Of a stretch of 5,840 nucleotides of DNA, positions 507 through 5,840 are shown piece by piece. Both the position numbers and the translations under genes were made by a program. The stretch comes from a bacterium (GTDB lineage Bacteria; UBA9089; CG2-30-40-21; SBAY01). A model generated the notes under the pieces. It was not told where the DNA came from and did not search any database. It worked only from the letters and a program-made list of their open reading frames with translations. The number at the start of each line of letters is the position of its first letter. Within the stretch, counting starts at the first letter, position 1. The stretch covers positions 1-5,840 of the forward strand of contig JBFLYA010000231.1 of the NCBI GenBank assembly GCA_040757115.1, given 5' to 3'.

Positions 507-563
507 GTTCAACCCAGAATTGTGTGTCGGCGTTGCTCCACACAAATTCTTAATTCGTTAGGC
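507..563 (-). other. attC site (short type) after the brnTA cassette
   Basis: On the minus strand the site opens with GCCTAAC (563-557) and closes with GTTGAAC (513-507). The arms 516-526 and 539-550 pair over 11 bp, with one unpaired A at 546, the kind of extrahelical base that sets strand choice in attC folding. The 12-base tip (527-538) is GC-rich. The antitoxin stop codon TAA occupies 560-558 inside the first core. At 57 nt it is under half the length of the other sites here and shares no obvious loop sequence with them, so it probably came from a different attC lineage. Confidence 0.75.
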
Positions 564-767
564 ATATTGTTTTTGTCTCTTAATAATATCAATTAATGAT
601 CTTAATGCTTGATTTACAGATTCATGGTCAGGGAAAAATTTGATAACATCAGGATCAACAACTACAACATTTGTTCCTTCACAGTATTTTTTTGCGTATT
701 TTCCCTGAATACCTTTACTGAAATCATATTCTTCAAGCATATCTCGATCTTTTTGCATTCTCTTCAT
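558..767 (-). CDS. BrnT-partner antitoxin (BrnA-like)
   Basis: Small protein of 69 residues with a charged N-terminus, an EYDFSKGIQGKYAKKY stretch (about residues 10-25), a beta-like NVVVVDPDVIKFF segment and a C-terminal helix ending in a basic tail. This layout is typical of short antitoxins encoded directly after BrnT-family toxins (family knowledge). It is expected to bind and neutralise the toxin and to repress the operon. I chose the ATG at 767 because AAAGGA lies six bases upstream. An in-frame ATG at 782 with AAAGG nine bases upstream is possible and would add five residues. The gene overlaps the end of the toxin gene by about 35 bases, implying coupled translation. Its TAA stop lies inside the attC core box. 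Confidence 0.8.
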   Translation of the reverse strand: MKRMQKDRDMLEEYDFSKGIQGKYAKKYCEGTNVVVVDPDVIKFFPDHESVNQALRSLIDIIKRQKQYA

Positions 768-1029
768 ATTGTTTCCTTTCATTTTTTGTTGCCTTTCTTG
801 AGCTTATTATTCTAATTTTATCCTCTCTTCCTGTATGAACAGTTACTAACACACGATGTTTAACTGAATTCCCAATTAAAATAAATCTGTCTTCTTGCTC
901 AGAATGTAGAGGATCATAGATTGTTAATGATAGTGTATCGCTAAAAGTTGTGCTGGCTTCATCAAAAGATATCCCATGGACATTTATATTCTTAATTGCT
1001 TTTCTTGGATCCCACTCAAATAATAACAT
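733..1029 (-). CDS. brnT: BrnT family toxin (DUF497), ribonuclease
   Basis: This 98-residue protein has the BrnT signature in order: FEWDPRKAIKN near the N-terminus (4-14), HGISFDEA (18-25), HSEQEDRF (42-49), and the RIISSRKATKNER strand-helix motif (73-85). The length is normal for the family. BrnT toxins are RelE-fold ribonucleases that arrest translation by cutting RNA, and they are held inactive by their antitoxin. Gene order here is toxin first, antitoxin second, as in brnTA. The gene starts 42 bases after an attC core, so it is the first gene of its cassette. I see no strong Shine-Dalgarno before the ATG and no confident promoter. The known autoregulation of brnTA would require one close by. 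Confidence 0.9.
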   Translation of the reverse strand: MLLFEWDPRKAIKNINVHGISFDEASTTFSDTLSLTIYDPLHSEQEDRFILIGNSVKHRVLVTVHTGREDKIRIISSRKATKNERKQYEENAKRSRYA

Positions 1030-1071
1030 ATTTCATTTTACCAATTCATCTTGAGTGTTAATATTTTATTT

Positions 1072-1202
1072 GTCTAACGATAGAGCTCACCTGCCGCCAA
1101 CAGGCTGGGCACAAAACTTTGAAAAACCACTAACCTTTGATGGAGCACAGAATTTCGAAAAACCGCACGCTGTTGGCGGTCAGGTGCAGCGAATGATAAT
1201 AA
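1072..1202 (-). other. attC site with one decayed core box
   Basis: The closing core is intact (GTTAGAC on the minus strand, 1078-1072). Arms 1088-1103 and 1170-1186 pair perfectly over 16 bp, with one unpaired T at 1180. This is the best stem of any site in the window. Aligned on the arm with the site at 4185-4317, the opening core should fall at 1196-1202, but the sequence there is TTATTAT on the minus strand instead of GCCTAAC. The loop resembles that of the 4185 site. Excision using this site is probably weakened, although the box where strand exchange occurs is kept. Confidence 0.7.
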
Positions 1203-1303
1203 TTAAAAGGCACTTGAAATCGATCGTACAGTATGATATAATACCAATGAGTTTATCGCTTTAACCACACCTGGATATATATATGAAAACATTAATTGCT
1301 TAA

Positions 1304-1443
1304 CCTTCTCCTCTGAGAGGTCAGATGATCTTCTTCAGAGGCATACATATCCAGTATGTGGTCTGGAAGGCGCTCGGGTCGCTCTCCAGCGTTGCCCTAT
1401 CCTCCTCCCAGGGGAGAAAGCTAAAAAATTAGCTACTATATAT
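1304..1443 (-). ncRNA. Candidate structured small RNA, unknown family
   Basis: The minus-strand arms 1420-1404 and 1320-1304 form a 17-position terminal stem with 14 Watson-Crick pairs, two G-U pairs and one C-A mismatch. Inside are a hairpin at 1397-1376 (GGG, CAA, CGCT, loop GGAG, AGCG, A, CCC) and another at 1359-1345 (ACATA, loop CTGGA, TATGT). A near-consensus promoter ends about seven bases before 1443, so transcription would begin just upstream of the stem. The region is richer in G+C than its flanks and has no open reading frame with a start and ribosome site. The leader forms a small AGCTAA/TTAGCT hairpin at 1434-1419. I do not recognise it as 6S, SRP, tmRNA, RNase P or a known riboswitch. 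The 3' end is uncertain, as no terminator is visible. It could be a standalone cassette RNA or a partner of the reverse transcriptase upstream. Confidence 0.45.
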
Positions 1444-1449
1444 TATAAT

Positions 1450-1478
1450 ATTATAGCCTTTTCTTTGGCTTGCGTCAA
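1450..1478 (-). promoter_or_regulatory. Sigma70-type promoter for the candidate RNA
   Basis: On the minus strand: TTGACG (1478-1473), 17-base spacer, TATAAT (1455-1450). That is 5/6 and 6/6 matches at ideal spacing, among the best promoters in the window. It points into the structured region at 1304-1443, not into any protein gene. Confidence 0.65.
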
Positions 1479-1495
1479 GTATTATTTTGATAAGC

Positions 1496-1715
1496 CTGTG
1501 ATTCAGACACTGGACATCAGACACAAAACTATAGACTCTATTTATGCAGGAAATTAGTGACATTTGGGAAACCATCCTCAAAACTTCACTCCCTGAATTT
1601 TTCCTAAGTATTACCTACAGAAGTATAGGCAGGTCTCTCAAGCCTTCATTCTTCTGCAATTTCTGCCCGCTTTAGTCTGAGGTCTGATGTCTATAGTCTA
1701 CTGTCTGAATCACAG
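1496..1715. mobile_element. Inverted-repeat element with heptad arrays at both ends
   Basis: A perfect 14-bp inverted repeat bounds the element (CTGTGATTCAGACA at 1496-1509 and its complement at 1702-1715). Each end continues as an array of 7-bp units. The left end reads ATTCAGA, CACTGGA, CATCAGA, CACAAAA, CTATAGA (1501-1535). The complement of the right end reads ATTCAGA, CAGTAGA, CTATAGA, CATCAGA, CCTCAGA (1710-1676). The ends thus share units in a different order. The 140-base middle has no gene, and I see no target-site duplication. It lies between the half attC of the reverse-transcriptase cassette and the RNA promoter, and may be the insertion or rearrangement that broke that attC. Confidence 0.5.
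1676..1710 (+). repeat. Heptanucleotide tandem repeat, TCTGATG type
   Basis: Five 7-bp units in register: TCTGAGG, TCTGATG, TCTATAG, TCTACTG, TCTGAAT. Every unit begins TCT. It is the right arm of the inverted-repeat element and mirrors the left array at 1501-1535. Confidence 0.75.
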
Positions 1716-1753
1716 TTACTAAACCTGATAAAATACCAGAAATTTAAGTTCAT

Positions 1754-1792
1754 CGGACAGCTCTGGCTGTTAGGTGCACGCAATGGTTAGGC
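1754..1792 (-). other. Half attC site after the reverse-transcriptase gene
   Basis: On the minus strand it begins with a good GCCTAAC core (1792-1786), then CATTGCGTGCACCT. This matches the opening arm of the sites at 4185 and 1072 (CGCTGCACCTGA). A small hairpin follows (1770-1757, ACAGC, loop CAGA, GCTGT). No matching closing arm or GTTRRRY core occurs in the next 200 bases. The site looks truncated at or just past its tip, close to the heptad element. The core begins 59 bases after the reverse-transcriptase stop codon. Confidence 0.55.
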
Positions 1793-1850
1793 GGAATATT
1801 TCGAGTTTCGGGATTAATTCCAGATATTTATTTTAATTAATGGTATAAAT

Positions 1851-3347
1851 TTAATACATCATTGCTTTTTTCTTGAATATTTCAATTTCCTCGGGCTGAA
1901 CAACTTCTGATGCATCATATACCGAACCAACAACTATTTTTGACACATTTAATGCAGATTTTAATTTTTCGCTTGAGATCCAATCATTTACCCAAAGTTT
2001 AGGATTTTCACCATTTACAATTTTGCATATTACTTCATTGCTAGAAAAGGATATTCCAACTGACTTTGGTTGTGTTATTCTTTGCAACCAGATTTCAAGA
2101 TAGCCGTTATAGGGAACACGTGACATCTTATTATGTACTTTCGTCCATAATTTTGTTTTATCTCTTTGGGGAGCAAGTGCGATAAGATGGCTTAGAATAC
2201 CAGCAATAGCAGGAAATGTATCTGGAGAAATAAAACCAATATCAACTGCAATTGCAACTTGTACTTCAAGATCATCTGGTGCTTCTGTTTGTTTTGTAAT
2301 TTTTGTATGGAATTCACTCACTAAACGCCGTAACGTTCCACTATTCGGGAATTGCTGTCCAAATTTATGCAATCGTAAAAGTTGCTTCTGAATTGTCTTT
2401 GCATTATCAAGTCCTAAATCTTGTAAATCAATACCGGCCAATTTATCAGGTTTGATAGCCCCCTCAATGACATTTTTAGTAAGATACGTTTTTGAAACAC
2501 CTACTTTCATCCCAACTGGTCTTAAATTGTCACTAATTATTTTAAGTATCTCTTCTGCACGTTCATCACTATTTGTAAATATCCTATAATCATCACGATA
2601 TCGTAATATGCGAAAATCTGTCGAACCACATAAAGAGTCATTAATTTGTTTGTCTATAAAACCAAGGACGATCTCTGCCACAAAGTCCATTAAAACAGGG
2701 CCCTGTGAAATACCATTTGTTTGACCATATCGGCCCGCCCTTATATGTGAGTCAATTATATTCCCCAAAAGTGAATTATCATTTTTCTTCGCCTTAGCGG
2801 TTTTTATACCATGTAACGCCCATGAAATACTGTGGGTATAAAGAGATGCGTAGCAGTCAATTACGTCTGTATGAAGTAAGTGACTAAACTCCAAAGAATA
2901 TATTAAAGATTGTTGCTCAACGCATTGCCACCAACTTGTAATTTGTTTAGCTACATCTTTTTGATCATCAAGTGACATGACAGGAGCGCTACAACAATAA
3001 ACGACACCATCTTCAAATTCTGCTATCCTATTAGTGATAAACTTCCAATTATCTGGATCACATATAACATTTACCAATGAAACATAAATTACTGGATGTA
3101 TAAGCTCAAGTGGCCTCCAAGCAAATTTGCCATCTTTGTTTGAGATGAAGCTATAGTTTACACCTGAATAATCATTGGGATTGGCAACTTTAAATTCTAA
3201 ATAATGACGCCCATTTAGTATAGTATCAACATCAGATAAAATTTGATCAAAGCTAATGTAGTCTGGTATATCTGCGTTAAAATAACTACTTCCTTTTAAA
3301 AAGTGTTTTTTTGCTTCTTCATTTGTTAGGTCAATTAATCTTTTCAT
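1851..3347 (-). CDS. Reverse transcriptase, Abi/UG (DRT) defence type
   Basis: This 498-residue protein is an RNA-templated DNA polymerase by its motifs. They are an RPLELIHP segment (78-85) ahead of the core, motif A HTDVIDCYASLY with catalytic Asp161, motif B NGISQGPVLMDF (211-222), motif C YRDD (250-253) with the catalytic Asp pair, and a motif D-like VGMKVGVSKT (278-287). Residues from about 310 onward form a helical C-terminal region. No maturase, integrase or nuclease domain is visible, which argues against a group II intron or a retroelement protein. The architecture matches single-protein antiviral reverse transcriptases of the Abi/UNknown-Group class, which block phage by untemplated or ncRNA-templated DNA synthesis (family knowledge). 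I cannot fix the UG number. The ATG at 3347 has AAAGGA six bases upstream. The gene starts 74 bases after an attC and is alone in its cassette apart from the candidate RNA. A retron is less likely: no msr-msd is evident upstream. Confidence 0.85.
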   Translation of the reverse strand: MKRLIDLTNEEAKKHFLKGSSYFNADIPDYISFDQILSDVDTILNGRHYLEFKVANPNDYSGVNYSFISNKDGKFAWRPLELIHPVIYVSLVNVICDPDNWKFITNRIAEFEDGVVYCCSAPVMSLDDQKDVAKQITSWWQCVEQQSLIYSLEFSHLLHTDVIDCYASLYTHSISWALHGIKTAKAKKNDNSLLGNIIDSHIRAGRYGQTNGISQGPVLMDFVAEIVLGFIDKQINDSLCGSTDFRILRYRDDYRIFTNSDERAEEILKIISDNLRPVGMKVGVSKTYLTKNVIEGAIKPDKLAGIDLQDLGLDNAKTIQKQLLRLHKFGQQFPNSGTLRRLVSEFHTKITKQTEAPDDLEVQVAIAVDIGFISPDTFPAIAGILSHLIALAPQRDKTKLWTKVHNKMSRVPYNGYLEIWLQRITQPKSVGISFSSNEVICKIVNGENPKLWVNDWISSEKLKSALNVSKIVVGSVYDASEVVQPEEIEIFKKKAMMY

Positions 3348-3420
3348 CTTAATTCCTTTTATTACATTTGGGGATCTTATTAGATATGATATTAAACTTT
3401 AAAATATGATGATATTTACC

Positions 3421-3553
3421 GCCTAACGATAAAGCTCACCTGCAGCAGGGAGAATTACTACTAAACTTTATAAGCACAATTACCCCTTTGAGATACTACA
3501 AAACTTTCAATCACGGCACAGCCCCCGCCGTCCGCTGCAACGATTTGTTAGAC
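3421..3553 (-). other. attC site between protease and reverse-transcriptase cassettes
   Basis: On the minus strand it opens with GTCTAAC (3553-3547) and closes with GTTAGGC (3427-3421). The arms are weaker than at the other long sites: GCTGCA at 3534-3539 pairs with TGCAGC at 3441-3446. Its 133-nt length equals that of the site at 4185, and the closing segment (core, then AAAGCTCACCTG on the plus strand) is nearly shared with it. The opening core begins nine bases after the protease stop codon. Confidence 0.75.
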
Positions 3554-3561
3554 AAAATACT

Positions 3562-3948
3562 TCATACCTCCAATGTACCCTCACTAAAATCTATCTTTAA
3601 TTTAAGTTCAACCAACGATTTTATCCCCAGCAACCCATCTACATAGCTTTTTGGCGGAAGATCATGAACAACAACCTCAACCTCTTTTATCCTCTTTCCC
3701 AGAACAACTATAGACTCCAGGGTAGCCAAAGGAGCTTTTTCCACTCCACTGGCAGTGATTATTTCTATTCTTTCTTTGGATAACTCTGGTTCTAACCCTA
3801 AAATTTCAGCAGTTTTCCAGGGAATCATAGTATAAGTTGCTCCTGTATCAAGAGCCATCCTTATCTTCTGCTTGGAGTTACTTTTACCCTCCAATAGGAT
3901 AGATAGTATAATTACTGGTGCTTTGGTATTAAATCTAAATTTTGGCAT
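3562..3948 (-). CDS. Retropepsin-like aspartic protease (clan AA)
   Basis: This 128-residue protein has a single retropepsin-type domain: the catalytic loop ALDTGATYTMIP with Asp34-Thr35-Gly36-Ala37, and a later DGLLGI (104-109) that supplies the hydrophobic-hydrophobic-Gly motif. The family acts as a homodimer, each chain giving one catalytic Asp. No signal peptide or membrane segment is evident, so a cytoplasmic soluble enzyme is likely. The substrate is unknown. I prefer the ATG at 3948 (MPKFRFN) because family members usually begin there. The ATG at 3963 is in frame but has AAAGGA only one base away. Either start overlaps the upstream small gene (by 14 or 29 bases), so translation is probably coupled and the two products likely act together. 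Confidence 0.8.
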   Translation of the reverse strand: MPKFRFNTKAPVIILSILLEGKSNSKQKIRMALDTGATYTMIPWKTAEILGLEPELSKERIEIITASGVEKAPLATLESIVVLGKRIKEVEVVVHDLPPKSYVDGLLGIKSLVELKLKIDFSEGTLEV

Positions 3949-4165
3949 AGAATACAACCGCATATCCTTTAGTAGGAATTTTTCCTGTATAGAAATGGTA
4001 GGAGTACTTACCTTTTACTTTTTTCATTGCGTCATAGGTCTCATCTCTATCTTTAGAATGTGTTATTACCTTCAGTTCTGTAGGCTCTCCCAGTTCGTCT
4101 TCCTTCAATACTTCGGCTAATACCCACTCATCTGTGTATTTTTCTTTTACCTCTTTCAATTTCAT
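3935..4165 (-). CDS. Small protein paired with the aspartic protease
   Basis: This 76-residue protein is rich in Lys and Glu, with alternating strand-like and helical stretches. It has an EWVLAEVLKEDE segment (13-24), ELKVITHSKDRDETYDAM (30-47) and a C-terminal GYAVVFYAKI strand. I do not recognise a named family. It is the first gene of its cassette, beginning 19 bases after the attC core. AGGAGG lies seven bases before the ATG, the strongest ribosome site in the window. Its 3' end overlaps the protease gene, and small proteins of this kind often precede such proteases (my recollection, unchecked). It could be a regulator, inhibitor or substrate of the protease, or one half of an addiction-like pair. 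No function can be claimed. Confidence 0.75.
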   Translation of the reverse strand: MKLKEVKEKYTDEWVLAEVLKEDELGEPTELKVITHSKDRDETYDAMKKVKGKYSYHFYTGKIPTKGYAVVFYAKI

Positions 4166-4184
4166 TTCTCATCCTCCTATCATG

Positions 4185-4317
4185 GTCTAACGGCAAAGCT
4201 CACCTGCCGCCAACAGTATACACCACAAAAATTTGAAAAACAACTAAACTTTTATAGGGCACATAACTTTGAAAAAACCACCAGCGGTTGGCTCTCAGGT
4301 GCAGCGATGGGTTAGGC
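4185..4317 (-). other. attC site between the MNT-HEPN and protease cassettes
   Basis: On the minus strand it opens with GCCTAAC (4317-4311) and closes with GTTAGAC (4191-4185). The outer arm CACCTG (4201-4206) pairs with CAGGTG (4296-4301), and the inner arm GCCAAC (4209-4214) pairs with GTTGGC (4287-4292). A 2-by-3 internal loop between them gives extrahelical bases. The long loop contains two copies of a TTTGAAAAA-type motif, also present in the site at 1072. The stop codon of the upstream gene (4314-4312) lies inside the opening core. Confidence 0.85.
4215..4243 (-). promoter_or_regulatory. Possible promoter inside the attC loop
   Basis: On the minus strand: TTGTTT (4243-4238), 17-base spacer, TATACT (4220-4215). 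These are 3/6 and 5/6 matches at ideal spacing. Transcription would start near 4208 and give the protease cassette a leader of about 43 bases. The -35 match is weak. Confidence 0.35.
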
Positions 4318-5196
4318 TTTTTTAATTTCCTGTTCAAATTGCTTAAACTTCTCACGACATTTTTTCAATGATAATCTGCGTAGTTTTTTCACTCGCTCAG
4401 CAAGGTATTCAAGTTCTTGTTTTGTTATTTTATAATTCTTGCTGTATCTTGCATCAACATAAGCCTTCTTAAGAAGTTCAAATAATCGCTTTTCTTCACC
4501 CTCTTTTCTTGGAAAGATCTTACAGAAATCCTCGTCAATCTTCTCTATCCGCTTGGTCAGTTTCTCTAAATCATGGGTTCTGGGTTTGTAGGAGGTAAGA
4601 ACAAGGGAAGTGCCAGTGTATAGGTGTTCTGTGGTCTGGTGCAGGCTGAATGCAGCCTCGTTGTTCCAATCTCTTTCAAGCTGAAGCTTGTAAGTTCCAA
4701 ACAGCCTCTTCGCCTTTGGAAACCAAAGAGCAAGATCCTCTTCCGCTAACTTCTTCTTTATCCCAGGAGTAAGCTTCCTTGCCCGGGCTAATTGGAACCT
4801 CTTTGAGTCATAGAGTAAGATGCCTTCTTTTTTGATGTCAGCATAGAAGTATCTGCCAACCGAGAGTTGCTCATTGACATGCTCAATATCTTCAATGATT
4901 AAGCTTACAGGGGTAGGGATTTTACGGCTGATCTGATTCTCTATCTTTCCCCAAATCTTAAAATCCTCAGGCTTTTTCTCATCCTTTACGATCACCATAA
5001 TGTCAAAGTCAGACTCATAGCTGGTAAAGTGCCCCTCTTCTTTATCATAGCGAAAGTCAGAGTCAACAAAGTCTCCCCTGGCATAGCTGCCAAACAGAAT
5101 AATCATCTCTACCTTGGTGGCATGAGAGATGAGATTGACAATAGTCTCTAACTCCCTCTGTTTTCGAAAAGGAAGATGGTCTAAAGTTGTTTTCAT
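4312..5196 (-). CDS. MNT nucleotidyltransferase-HEPN domain fusion protein
   Basis: This 294-residue protein has two domains. Residues about 15-125 are a minimal nucleotidyltransferase with the GSYARG signature (36-41) and the metal-binding Asp63-x-Asp65 (ESDFDIMV). A longer than usual linker separates the two motifs. Residues about 146-275 form an all-helical HEPN-like domain with RTHDL (206-210) and RYSKNYKI (250-257). In paired MNT/HEPN toxin-antitoxin systems, HEPN is an RNase silenced by MNT AMP-transfer. Here both are in one chain, so the protein may be self-controlled or may modify a different target. Position 254 is Asn where a His of an RNase-type R-x-H motif might be expected, so catalysis is doubtful. 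The ATG at 5196 is chosen for GAGG six bases upstream; a TTG at 5208 is in frame. The TAA stop lies inside the attC core. Confidence 0.8.
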   Translation of the reverse strand: MKTTLDHLPFRKQRELETIVNLISHATKVEMIILFGSYARGDFVDSDFRYDKEEGHFTSYESDFDIMVIVKDEKKPEDFKIWGKIENQISRKIPTPVSLIIEDIEHVNEQLSVGRYFYADIKKEGILLYDSKRFQLARARKLTPGIKKKLAEEDLALWFPKAKRLFGTYKLQLERDWNNEAAFSLHQTTEHLYTGTSLVLTSYKPRTHDLEKLTKRIEKIDEDFCKIFPRKEGEEKRLFELLKKAYVDARYSKNYKITKQELEYLAERVKKLRRLSLKKCREKFKQFEQEIKKA

Positions 5197-5218
5197 GATA
5201 ATCCTCAATAATTCAGTA

Positions 5219-5225
5219 GCCTAAC
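5219..5225 (-). other. Lone integron core site (possible attI junction)
   Basis: GTTAGGC on the minus strand, 22 bases before the MNT-HEPN start codon, in the same place relative to the gene as the cores that precede the other cassettes. I find no pairing RYYYAAC arm upstream within about 130 bases. That fits an attI site better than an attC, or else a decayed attC. Confidence 0.45.
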
Positions 5226-5230
5226 AAGTT

Positions 5231-5276
5231 ATTATATAGTTTTCTTTACTTTAACACAATAGCCTCAAAAAGTCAA
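5231..5276 (-). promoter_or_regulatory. Two overlapping promoters reading into the first cassette
   Basis: On the minus strand, one promoter is TTGACT (5276-5271), 17 bases, TAAAGT (5253-5248). The other is TTGTGT (5259-5254), 17 bases, TATAAT (5236-5231). Both lie immediately before the core at 5219-5225 and read into the MNT-HEPN gene, the position expected of an integron cassette promoter (Pc). Confidence 0.5.
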
Positions 5277-5769
5277 GAAAAAATTCGACAAAAACCAATA
5301 AATTCTCTATAACTCTAACTGGTTATCATTAACTTTTTACATGATATACAGAAAATAGGATAATTCTGCATGATTAATATACCAATCCATATTCCGCACT
5401 CATCCACTAAGGAAATAATATTTTTAGGACTGATAGGAAATTGCTTTTTTGAGTGTTTTGGGTATTATATCCATTTGTGCCCATTGTGAGGATATTTTAC
5501 CTCAAATTTTATCCTATGTCAACAAAAAATTCGGCTCTTTTGAAAAAATCCAAAAATTAGTATCAAAAATCTGCTCGATTAGATTAGGACAAAATCATAA
5601 AAATGGACATTGTCAATGACGATTTTGGACACACTTATCCTGCATGGTATGCTGATGGGAGAAAACTAGTACTGTGTTAAGTAAATTTTTTCACAGTTTT
5701 TTCTAAAGTTTTACTGATAAAATGACGATAATTCCACGTGGGCATAGAAATTTTAAGGAGGAAAGAATT
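5277..5769. other. Gene-free AT-rich region beside the array
   Basis: No credible gene on either strand. The clearest signals are the minus-strand promoter at 5494-5522, with its 6-bp inverted repeat, and the translation start region of the plus-strand gene near the right end. The short palindrome CATTG-T-CAATG lies near 5607-5617. A weak plus-strand promoter, TTGGAC, 17 bases, TATGCT, lies near 5625-5653. I see no integrase remnants or terminator. Confidence 0.5.
5494..5522 (-). promoter_or_regulatory. Near-consensus promoter overlapped by an inverted repeat
   Basis: On the minus strand: TTGACA (5522-5517), 17-base spacer, TAAAAT (5499-5494), with 6/6 and 5/6 matches. The inverted repeat AGGATA (5489-5494) / TATCCT (5510-5515) spans the -10 and spacer and could be an operator. 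Transcription would start near 5487 and run toward the array through about 260 bases without a gene. Confidence 0.55.
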
Positions 5770-5840
5770 ATGCAAAAAAGATATCCACGTGGTCCAAAAC
5801 CAAATTCATTTGATTTATCAGGAGAAATTCTCAAAACTAT
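5770..5840 (+). CDS. 5' end of an unrecognised protein gene
   Basis: Only 23 codons are in the window (MQKRYPRGPKPNSFDLSGEI and onward). AAGGAGG (5755-5761) stands eight bases before the ATG, so translation is likely. The N-terminus is basic and proline-rich. It is divergent from the cassettes, which is where an integron integrase would lie. However, these residues do not resemble the usual integrase N-terminus and the gap to the core at 5219 is about 545 bases. A transposase or regulator is equally possible. Confidence 0.5.
   Translation, partial: MQKRYPRGPKPNSFDLSGEILKT

Follow-up and report, generated by a model that had tools for sequence, protein, structure and literature searches.

An integron cassette array with defence-type cargo, an attI site and a destroyed intI in a bacterium of a little-studied phylum

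Known integrons and the array in the window

In integrons, the integrase IntI takes the bottom strand of an attC site in its folded form and recombines it with attI or with another attC; new cassettes enter at the first position. Integrons have been published from many phyla (PMC9668308, PMC9024848), and both defence-rich chromosomal integrons of Vibrio (the biobank reports Darracq 2025 and Getz 2025, as cited in PMC12409362) and integrons of the mobile type that carry phage defence (Kieffer 2025, as cited in the same paper) are among those described. A search of the literature for integrons of anammox bacteria or candidate phyla with toxin-antitoxin cargo gave no match.

The stretch of DNA analyzed here, called the window, is the entire contig JBFLYA010000231.1 (C231), with 5,840 bases, of a draft genome of 4.32 Mb in 462 contigs that is estimated to be 99.87% complete. 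The window is almost certainly the part next to attI of a chromosomal integron platform that has decayed and whose own intI was destroyed. In it, attI is followed by an MNT-HEPN gene in first position, an aspartic protease with its partner, a reverse transcriptase of the AbiP2 family and BrnTA, with long attC sites of one genome-wide family between them. The first-pass annotation had proposed an integron cassette array from the letters of the window, and had named the lack of attC by covariance model and of any integrase as the outcome that would speak against it. Three attC sites were found in the window with a covariance model, together with at least 132 in the genome; the cassette junctions lie at the core, attI is in the window and an intact IntI is encoded on contig C39, all of which bears the proposal out.

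The sedentary chromosomal integrons (superintegrons) of Vibrio share with this genome the many related attC sites, the toxin-antitoxin cargo and the presence of anti-phage genes in cassettes. Here, by contrast, the sites are scattered across at least 32 contigs of a draft assembly, and a single intact integrase is accompanied by several decayed attI/intI remnants; the host belongs to a small non-proteobacterial phylum, and AbiP2 and an expanded family of MNT-HEPN genes are part of the cargo. With three attC sites and no functional integrase, on a truncated contig that ends at 5840, C231 also falls within the CALIN class of IntegronFinder (PMC9024848), which takes two or more attC with no integrase near them. 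It departs from a CALIN in that attI and the first few codons of intI are still present, and in that another contig carries an intact integrase. The C231 integron adds a new example to the defence-rich chromosomal integrons already published.

The attC sites and the attI platform

Thirty-three attC-like sites of other contigs, each read in gene orientation, were aligned (alignment A1). A covariance model, R1, was built from these sites of the genome itself, with no window sequence in it, given that a search of the window against Rfam had returned no attC and no other credible RNA. On the minus strand of the window, R1 matched the attC of the protease cassette (3421-3553; 116 bits, E 1.2e-30), the attC of the MNT-HEPN cassette (4185-4317; 85 bits, E 5.4e-22) and an orphan attC with a degenerate R'' box (1072-1202; 69 bits, E 1.6e-17), these E-values coming from a shortened calibration and, as the model was trained on the same genome, indicating only that the window sites are members of the family. 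The three sites, of 131-133 nt, have a single orientation and are placed at cassette junctions, and those at 3421-3553 and 4185-4317 are complete, in agreement with the long, related attC sites that had been claimed.

The family is taken as attC because of its boxes, its stem, the cassette junctions and the integrase. Besides the R and L boxes, it has a conserved stem in which 12 of the 24 pairs show changes on both sides, a covariation that exceeds all 500 shuffles (0/500) on all five measures, and slid versions of this stem pair 33-50% of the cells versus 93.5% for the named stem. It also has extrahelical bases on one arm, the unpaired G16 and A23, which are nearly invariant or invariant in A1. 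A left half-site pattern derived from the window was found 62 times genome-wide, and its reversed control once. When the two intact window sites were folded as single-strand DNA, their predicted energy was no better than that of shuffles, so that this measure is uninformative for them and the support for the window attC is comparative. On the gene-sense strand, the extrahelical bases at A1 columns 16 and 23 read G and A. The usual extrahelical pair would read C and A, and the G at the first position may be a variant.

An attC for each cassette had been proposed, and this held for the MNT-HEPN and protease cassettes. For the AbiP2 cassette, what is left of the site is a half-site (1682-1792, minus strand, R'' box at 1786-1792; R1 11 bits, E 0.16), the lost half being missing beside an inserted MITE-like repeat (1449-1715) that has an imperfect 42-nt inverted repeat and copies of 88-99% identity on several other contigs. 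The proposed leftmost site at 507-563 scored 6.5 bits (E 2.9) and was discarded, since it belongs to a 160-nt dispersed repeat (404-563) that replaces the array end and holds a hairpin. The possibility that this stretch is a short attC from a different family, with RYYYAAC/GTTRRRY boxes and a hairpin, was likewise rejected, given that it has no R1 match and that the shared sequence extends 100 nt and recurs beside unrelated neighbors. Six other copies of the 160-nt repeat, one of them partial, are found on C197, C208, C261, C56, C124 and C28. In five copies the repeat starts with TAACG, immediately behind unrelated sequence (TGCC in three of the five), and for this reason it may use or mimic the attC core; in three copies it is followed by the same second repeat. 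Another MITE-like element, with inverted-repeat ends and similar copies on other contigs, lies at 49-402.

The attI region (5219-5386, minus strand) joins the first cassette at its core GTTAGGC (within 5219-5226) and is 79-80% identical to positions 14979-15143 of C39, which are directly upstream of the intact intI. Other copies of attI are found on C14 (90%), C329, C98 and C63, and at a second place on C39. The region runs into the first codons of the destroyed intI (5370-5390, plus strand), giving the arrangement of attI beside intI that is typical of an integron. These codons read MINIPIH, versus MINIPIE at the start of the C39 integrase: the window has ATG ATT AAT ATA CCA AT and then diverges from C39 into unrelated sequence, and the resulting reading frame (MINIPIHIPHSS...) ends after 39 aa. 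Comparison with C39, C98 and C63 shows that the intI promoter (5285-5313, plus strand) has decayed, with TCGACA-N17-TATAAC in the window versus TTGACA-N17-TATAAT in C39, as would be expected once the gene was lost. For the cassette promoter Pc, only a weak site was found (5276-5248, minus strand), and the number of such sites is not above that of shuffles.

A repeat with copies up to 93% identical on other contigs occupies 5429-5641, in the place expected for the rest of intI. An ORF that starts near 5771 runs off the contig end, with no family match for the 23 residues searched. On C98, a cassette array of uniform direction has an attI remnant (L053:3369-3555) within it, which looks like a fusion of two arrays following the loss of an integrase.

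Cassette cargo and its copies

Every gene of the four cassettes is on the minus strand, which agrees with the common orientation given in the first-pass annotation, and the cargo names proposed there were matched by family models (Polbeta/MNT with HEPN, aspartyl protease, AbiP2 reverse transcriptase and BrnT). Stop codons inside core boxes, which had also been claimed, were found in two of the four cassettes: those of the MNT-HEPN gene (TAA at 4312-4314, in the R'' box) and of the putative BrnA gene (558-560, in GCCTAAC) are so placed, and those of the reverse transcriptase (1851) and the protease (3562) are not.

The first cassette (4312-5208) encodes a single chain of 294-298 aa with a nucleotidyltransferase (MNT) and a HEPN domain (Pfam HEPN 4.2e-12, Polbeta 2e-9). 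In the type VII toxin-antitoxin system HepT/MntA, the HEPN toxin and the MNT antitoxin are separate genes. This two-gene arrangement is not found here, both domains being in one chain, and the MntA equivalog model gives the window protein 27.6 bits, below the cut-off of 60. The genome has eight copies of the gene, the window and seven others, and a sister species has one. The 5' end of the cassette (GTTAGGCTACTGAA) follows attI in the window, and on C93, C116 and C329 it is preceded by different attC ends; the cassette start GTTAGGCTACTGAATTATTGAGG, which adjoins attI in the window, has the same or nearly the same sequence after the attC ends of these three contigs. In the three copies checked, identity to the window breaks at the GTTAGGC core; for the copy on C39, no core junction was found in the stretch examined. 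The family has one strongly variable patch, which covers residues 161-195 in the window protein, where its HEPN domain begins; there pairwise identity falls to 0.34 (15-residue window) versus a mean of 0.82.

The fourth cassette carries a BrnT toxin (733-1029; Pfam BrnT_toxin 4.5e-27) and a putative BrnA-type antitoxin of 74 aa (558-782), so named from its position and general resemblance; family searches of this protein gave no match. The same gene pair, with 96% identical DNA, is present on C30, where it keeps a normal attC. The window cassette is without one of its own, which it has lost, given that 507-563 is part of the dispersed repeat. The MNT-HEPN and BrnTA cassettes are thus both found in several contexts, with boundaries in GTTRRRY, and copies bounded by the core in this way have the signature that would be expected from the insertion of integron cassettes.

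The second cassette holds two genes, for a small PDC-M08A-like partner protein of 76 aa (3935-4165; PADLOC 7.1e-6) and for a PDC-M08B-like clan AA aspartic protease of 133 aa (3562-3963; Pfam Asp_protease_2 7.3e-15, PADLOC PDC-M08B 5.7e-11). The third encodes a reverse transcriptase of 498 aa (1851-3347) with the catalytic motif YRDD, which matches AbiP2 in PADLOC over its full length (2.7e-187; 621 bits over 495 aa, the next model giving 1.3e-47). AbiP2 is a known anti-phage family in the class of the Abi/DRT reverse transcriptases. The window protein matches the AbiP2 of PDB 7r08 at 2.4e-71 and differs from it in being carried as an integron cassette. As an annotation, the "defence-type" label given to the cargo is sound, since the remaining genes belong to toxin-antitoxin or candidate-defence families, and by family membership AbiP2 would act in defence and other cargo as toxin-antitoxin systems. 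On the Agrobacterium leguminum plasmid NZ_CP119973.1, a stretch with no listed gene has 66% identity to the AbiP2 protein, which is closer than other plasmid relatives.

The integrase and the genome-wide system

C231 has no integrase in its 5,840 bases, and it stops at 5840, leaving therefore no right flank in which to look for one. The only intact integron integrase of the genome is that of C39 (TIGR02249, 368.6 bits versus a cut-off of 265), which aligns unbroken to the IntI of V. cholerae (2a3v) through query residues 175-226, the IntI-specific insertion, at which the XerC-like match splits in two. Fragments of intI or copies with stops are found on C30, C63, C118, C114, C324 and C116.

The C39 integrase (L051:1616-2995, minus strand) is extended at its N terminus by about 130 aa, of which residues 6-86 are predicted with confidence as a four-helix domain (pLDDT about 90), and the predicted helix layout resembles that of the core-binding SAM-like domain after it (130-215). 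A contig scan of other genomes gave relatives of this integrase in many phyla, and most of the 53 related integrases examined have an extension of 110-215 aa upstream of the canonical IntI part, with extended relatives in Nitrospirota, Desulfobacterota and anammox bacteria. A literature search on the topic of integrase N-terminal extensions gave no match. A group of IntI that is about 120 aa longer by gene fusion, clade 15, is described by Nemergut et al. 2008 (PMC2426708) and given there as deltaproteobacterial. The C39 extension may be the fusion noted for clade 15 (PMC2426708); the deltaproteobacterial description of that clade is a point of difference.

The attC sites of the genome, at least 132 on 32 or more contigs (R1, 150 candidates scored), have a uniform orientation on each contig, except for C93 with two blocks, and a spacing as for cassettes. 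In 92 inter-attC intervals the longest ORF is in the cassette sense in 81 and antisense in 10, intervals without a 40-aa ORF being tallied as sense. The commonest Pfam families among 108 cassette proteins are PIN (7), HEPN with nucleotidyltransferase (7), BrnT (4), aspartic protease (4) and HicA (3), and an MjaI-type restriction enzyme with its methylase is also part of the cargo. R1 gave matches in 16 of the 18 genomes sampled from this phylum, and weaker ones adjoin the related integrases of anammox bacteria, Nitrospirota, Desulfobacterota and other groups. With 462 contigs, the assembly does not give the genomic order of the arrays, and some copies could be strain variants, which is less likely because the attI copies are only 70-90% identical to one another. 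A tentative picture, somewhat less likely than not, is that of a dispersed superintegron with several attI platforms and mostly dead intI, in which a single long-form integrase serves all arrays in trans, forming a shared store of toxin-antitoxin and anti-phage cassettes; the pattern may hold across the phylum.

By the established mechanism, IntI would act on the folded bottom strand of attC in the C231 array and recombine it with attI or with another attC. In the last step, the intact C39 integrase would serve the attI and attC of C231 in trans, for which it is the obvious candidate because the attI and attC sequences are homologous. Recombination may be continuing, and the cargo may have a defence or stabilizing role. 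Only this last step separates the mechanism from one in which C231 is a CALIN or fossil array whose cassettes are no longer mobilized, an outcome that we regard as possible though doubtful. It would account for the destroyed intI with its degenerate promoter (TCGACA/TATAAC), the two eroded cassette ends and the inserted repeats, and it has against it an intact integrase and many near-identical attC elsewhere in the genome, as well as the two complete attC of the window, because of which mobilization in trans could still take place.

That the genes form an ordinary defence island or operon, with GTTAGGC-like boxes at the gene junctions by chance, agrees with cargo of the defence-island type and is otherwise refuted by the covariance-model matches (E down to 1.2e-30), the number of sites in the genome (at least 132), the half-site pattern (62 versus 1 for the reversed control) and the divergence of cassette copies at the core, which together leave it practically no probability. 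It is very improbable, too, that the genes spread by way of repeats, through transposons or homologous recombination, with attC-like hairpins carried along without integrase action: dispersed repeats and MITE-like elements are indeed many in this genome, but the junctions are site-specific at GTTRRRY in unrelated contexts and attC orientation is constant over long arrays.

Read as a decayed integron platform, the window array is a worn offshoot of a large integron system that extends through the genome of a bacterium from a phylum that has been little studied. Here a very large integron system is seen beyond the proteobacterial models, and in it a defined attC family, attI, one intact integrase and decayed platforms could be recognized. 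AbiP2 is placed by it among the genes carried in integron cassettes, and the eight MNT-HEPN copies are a natural case for the study of cassette duplication and divergence.
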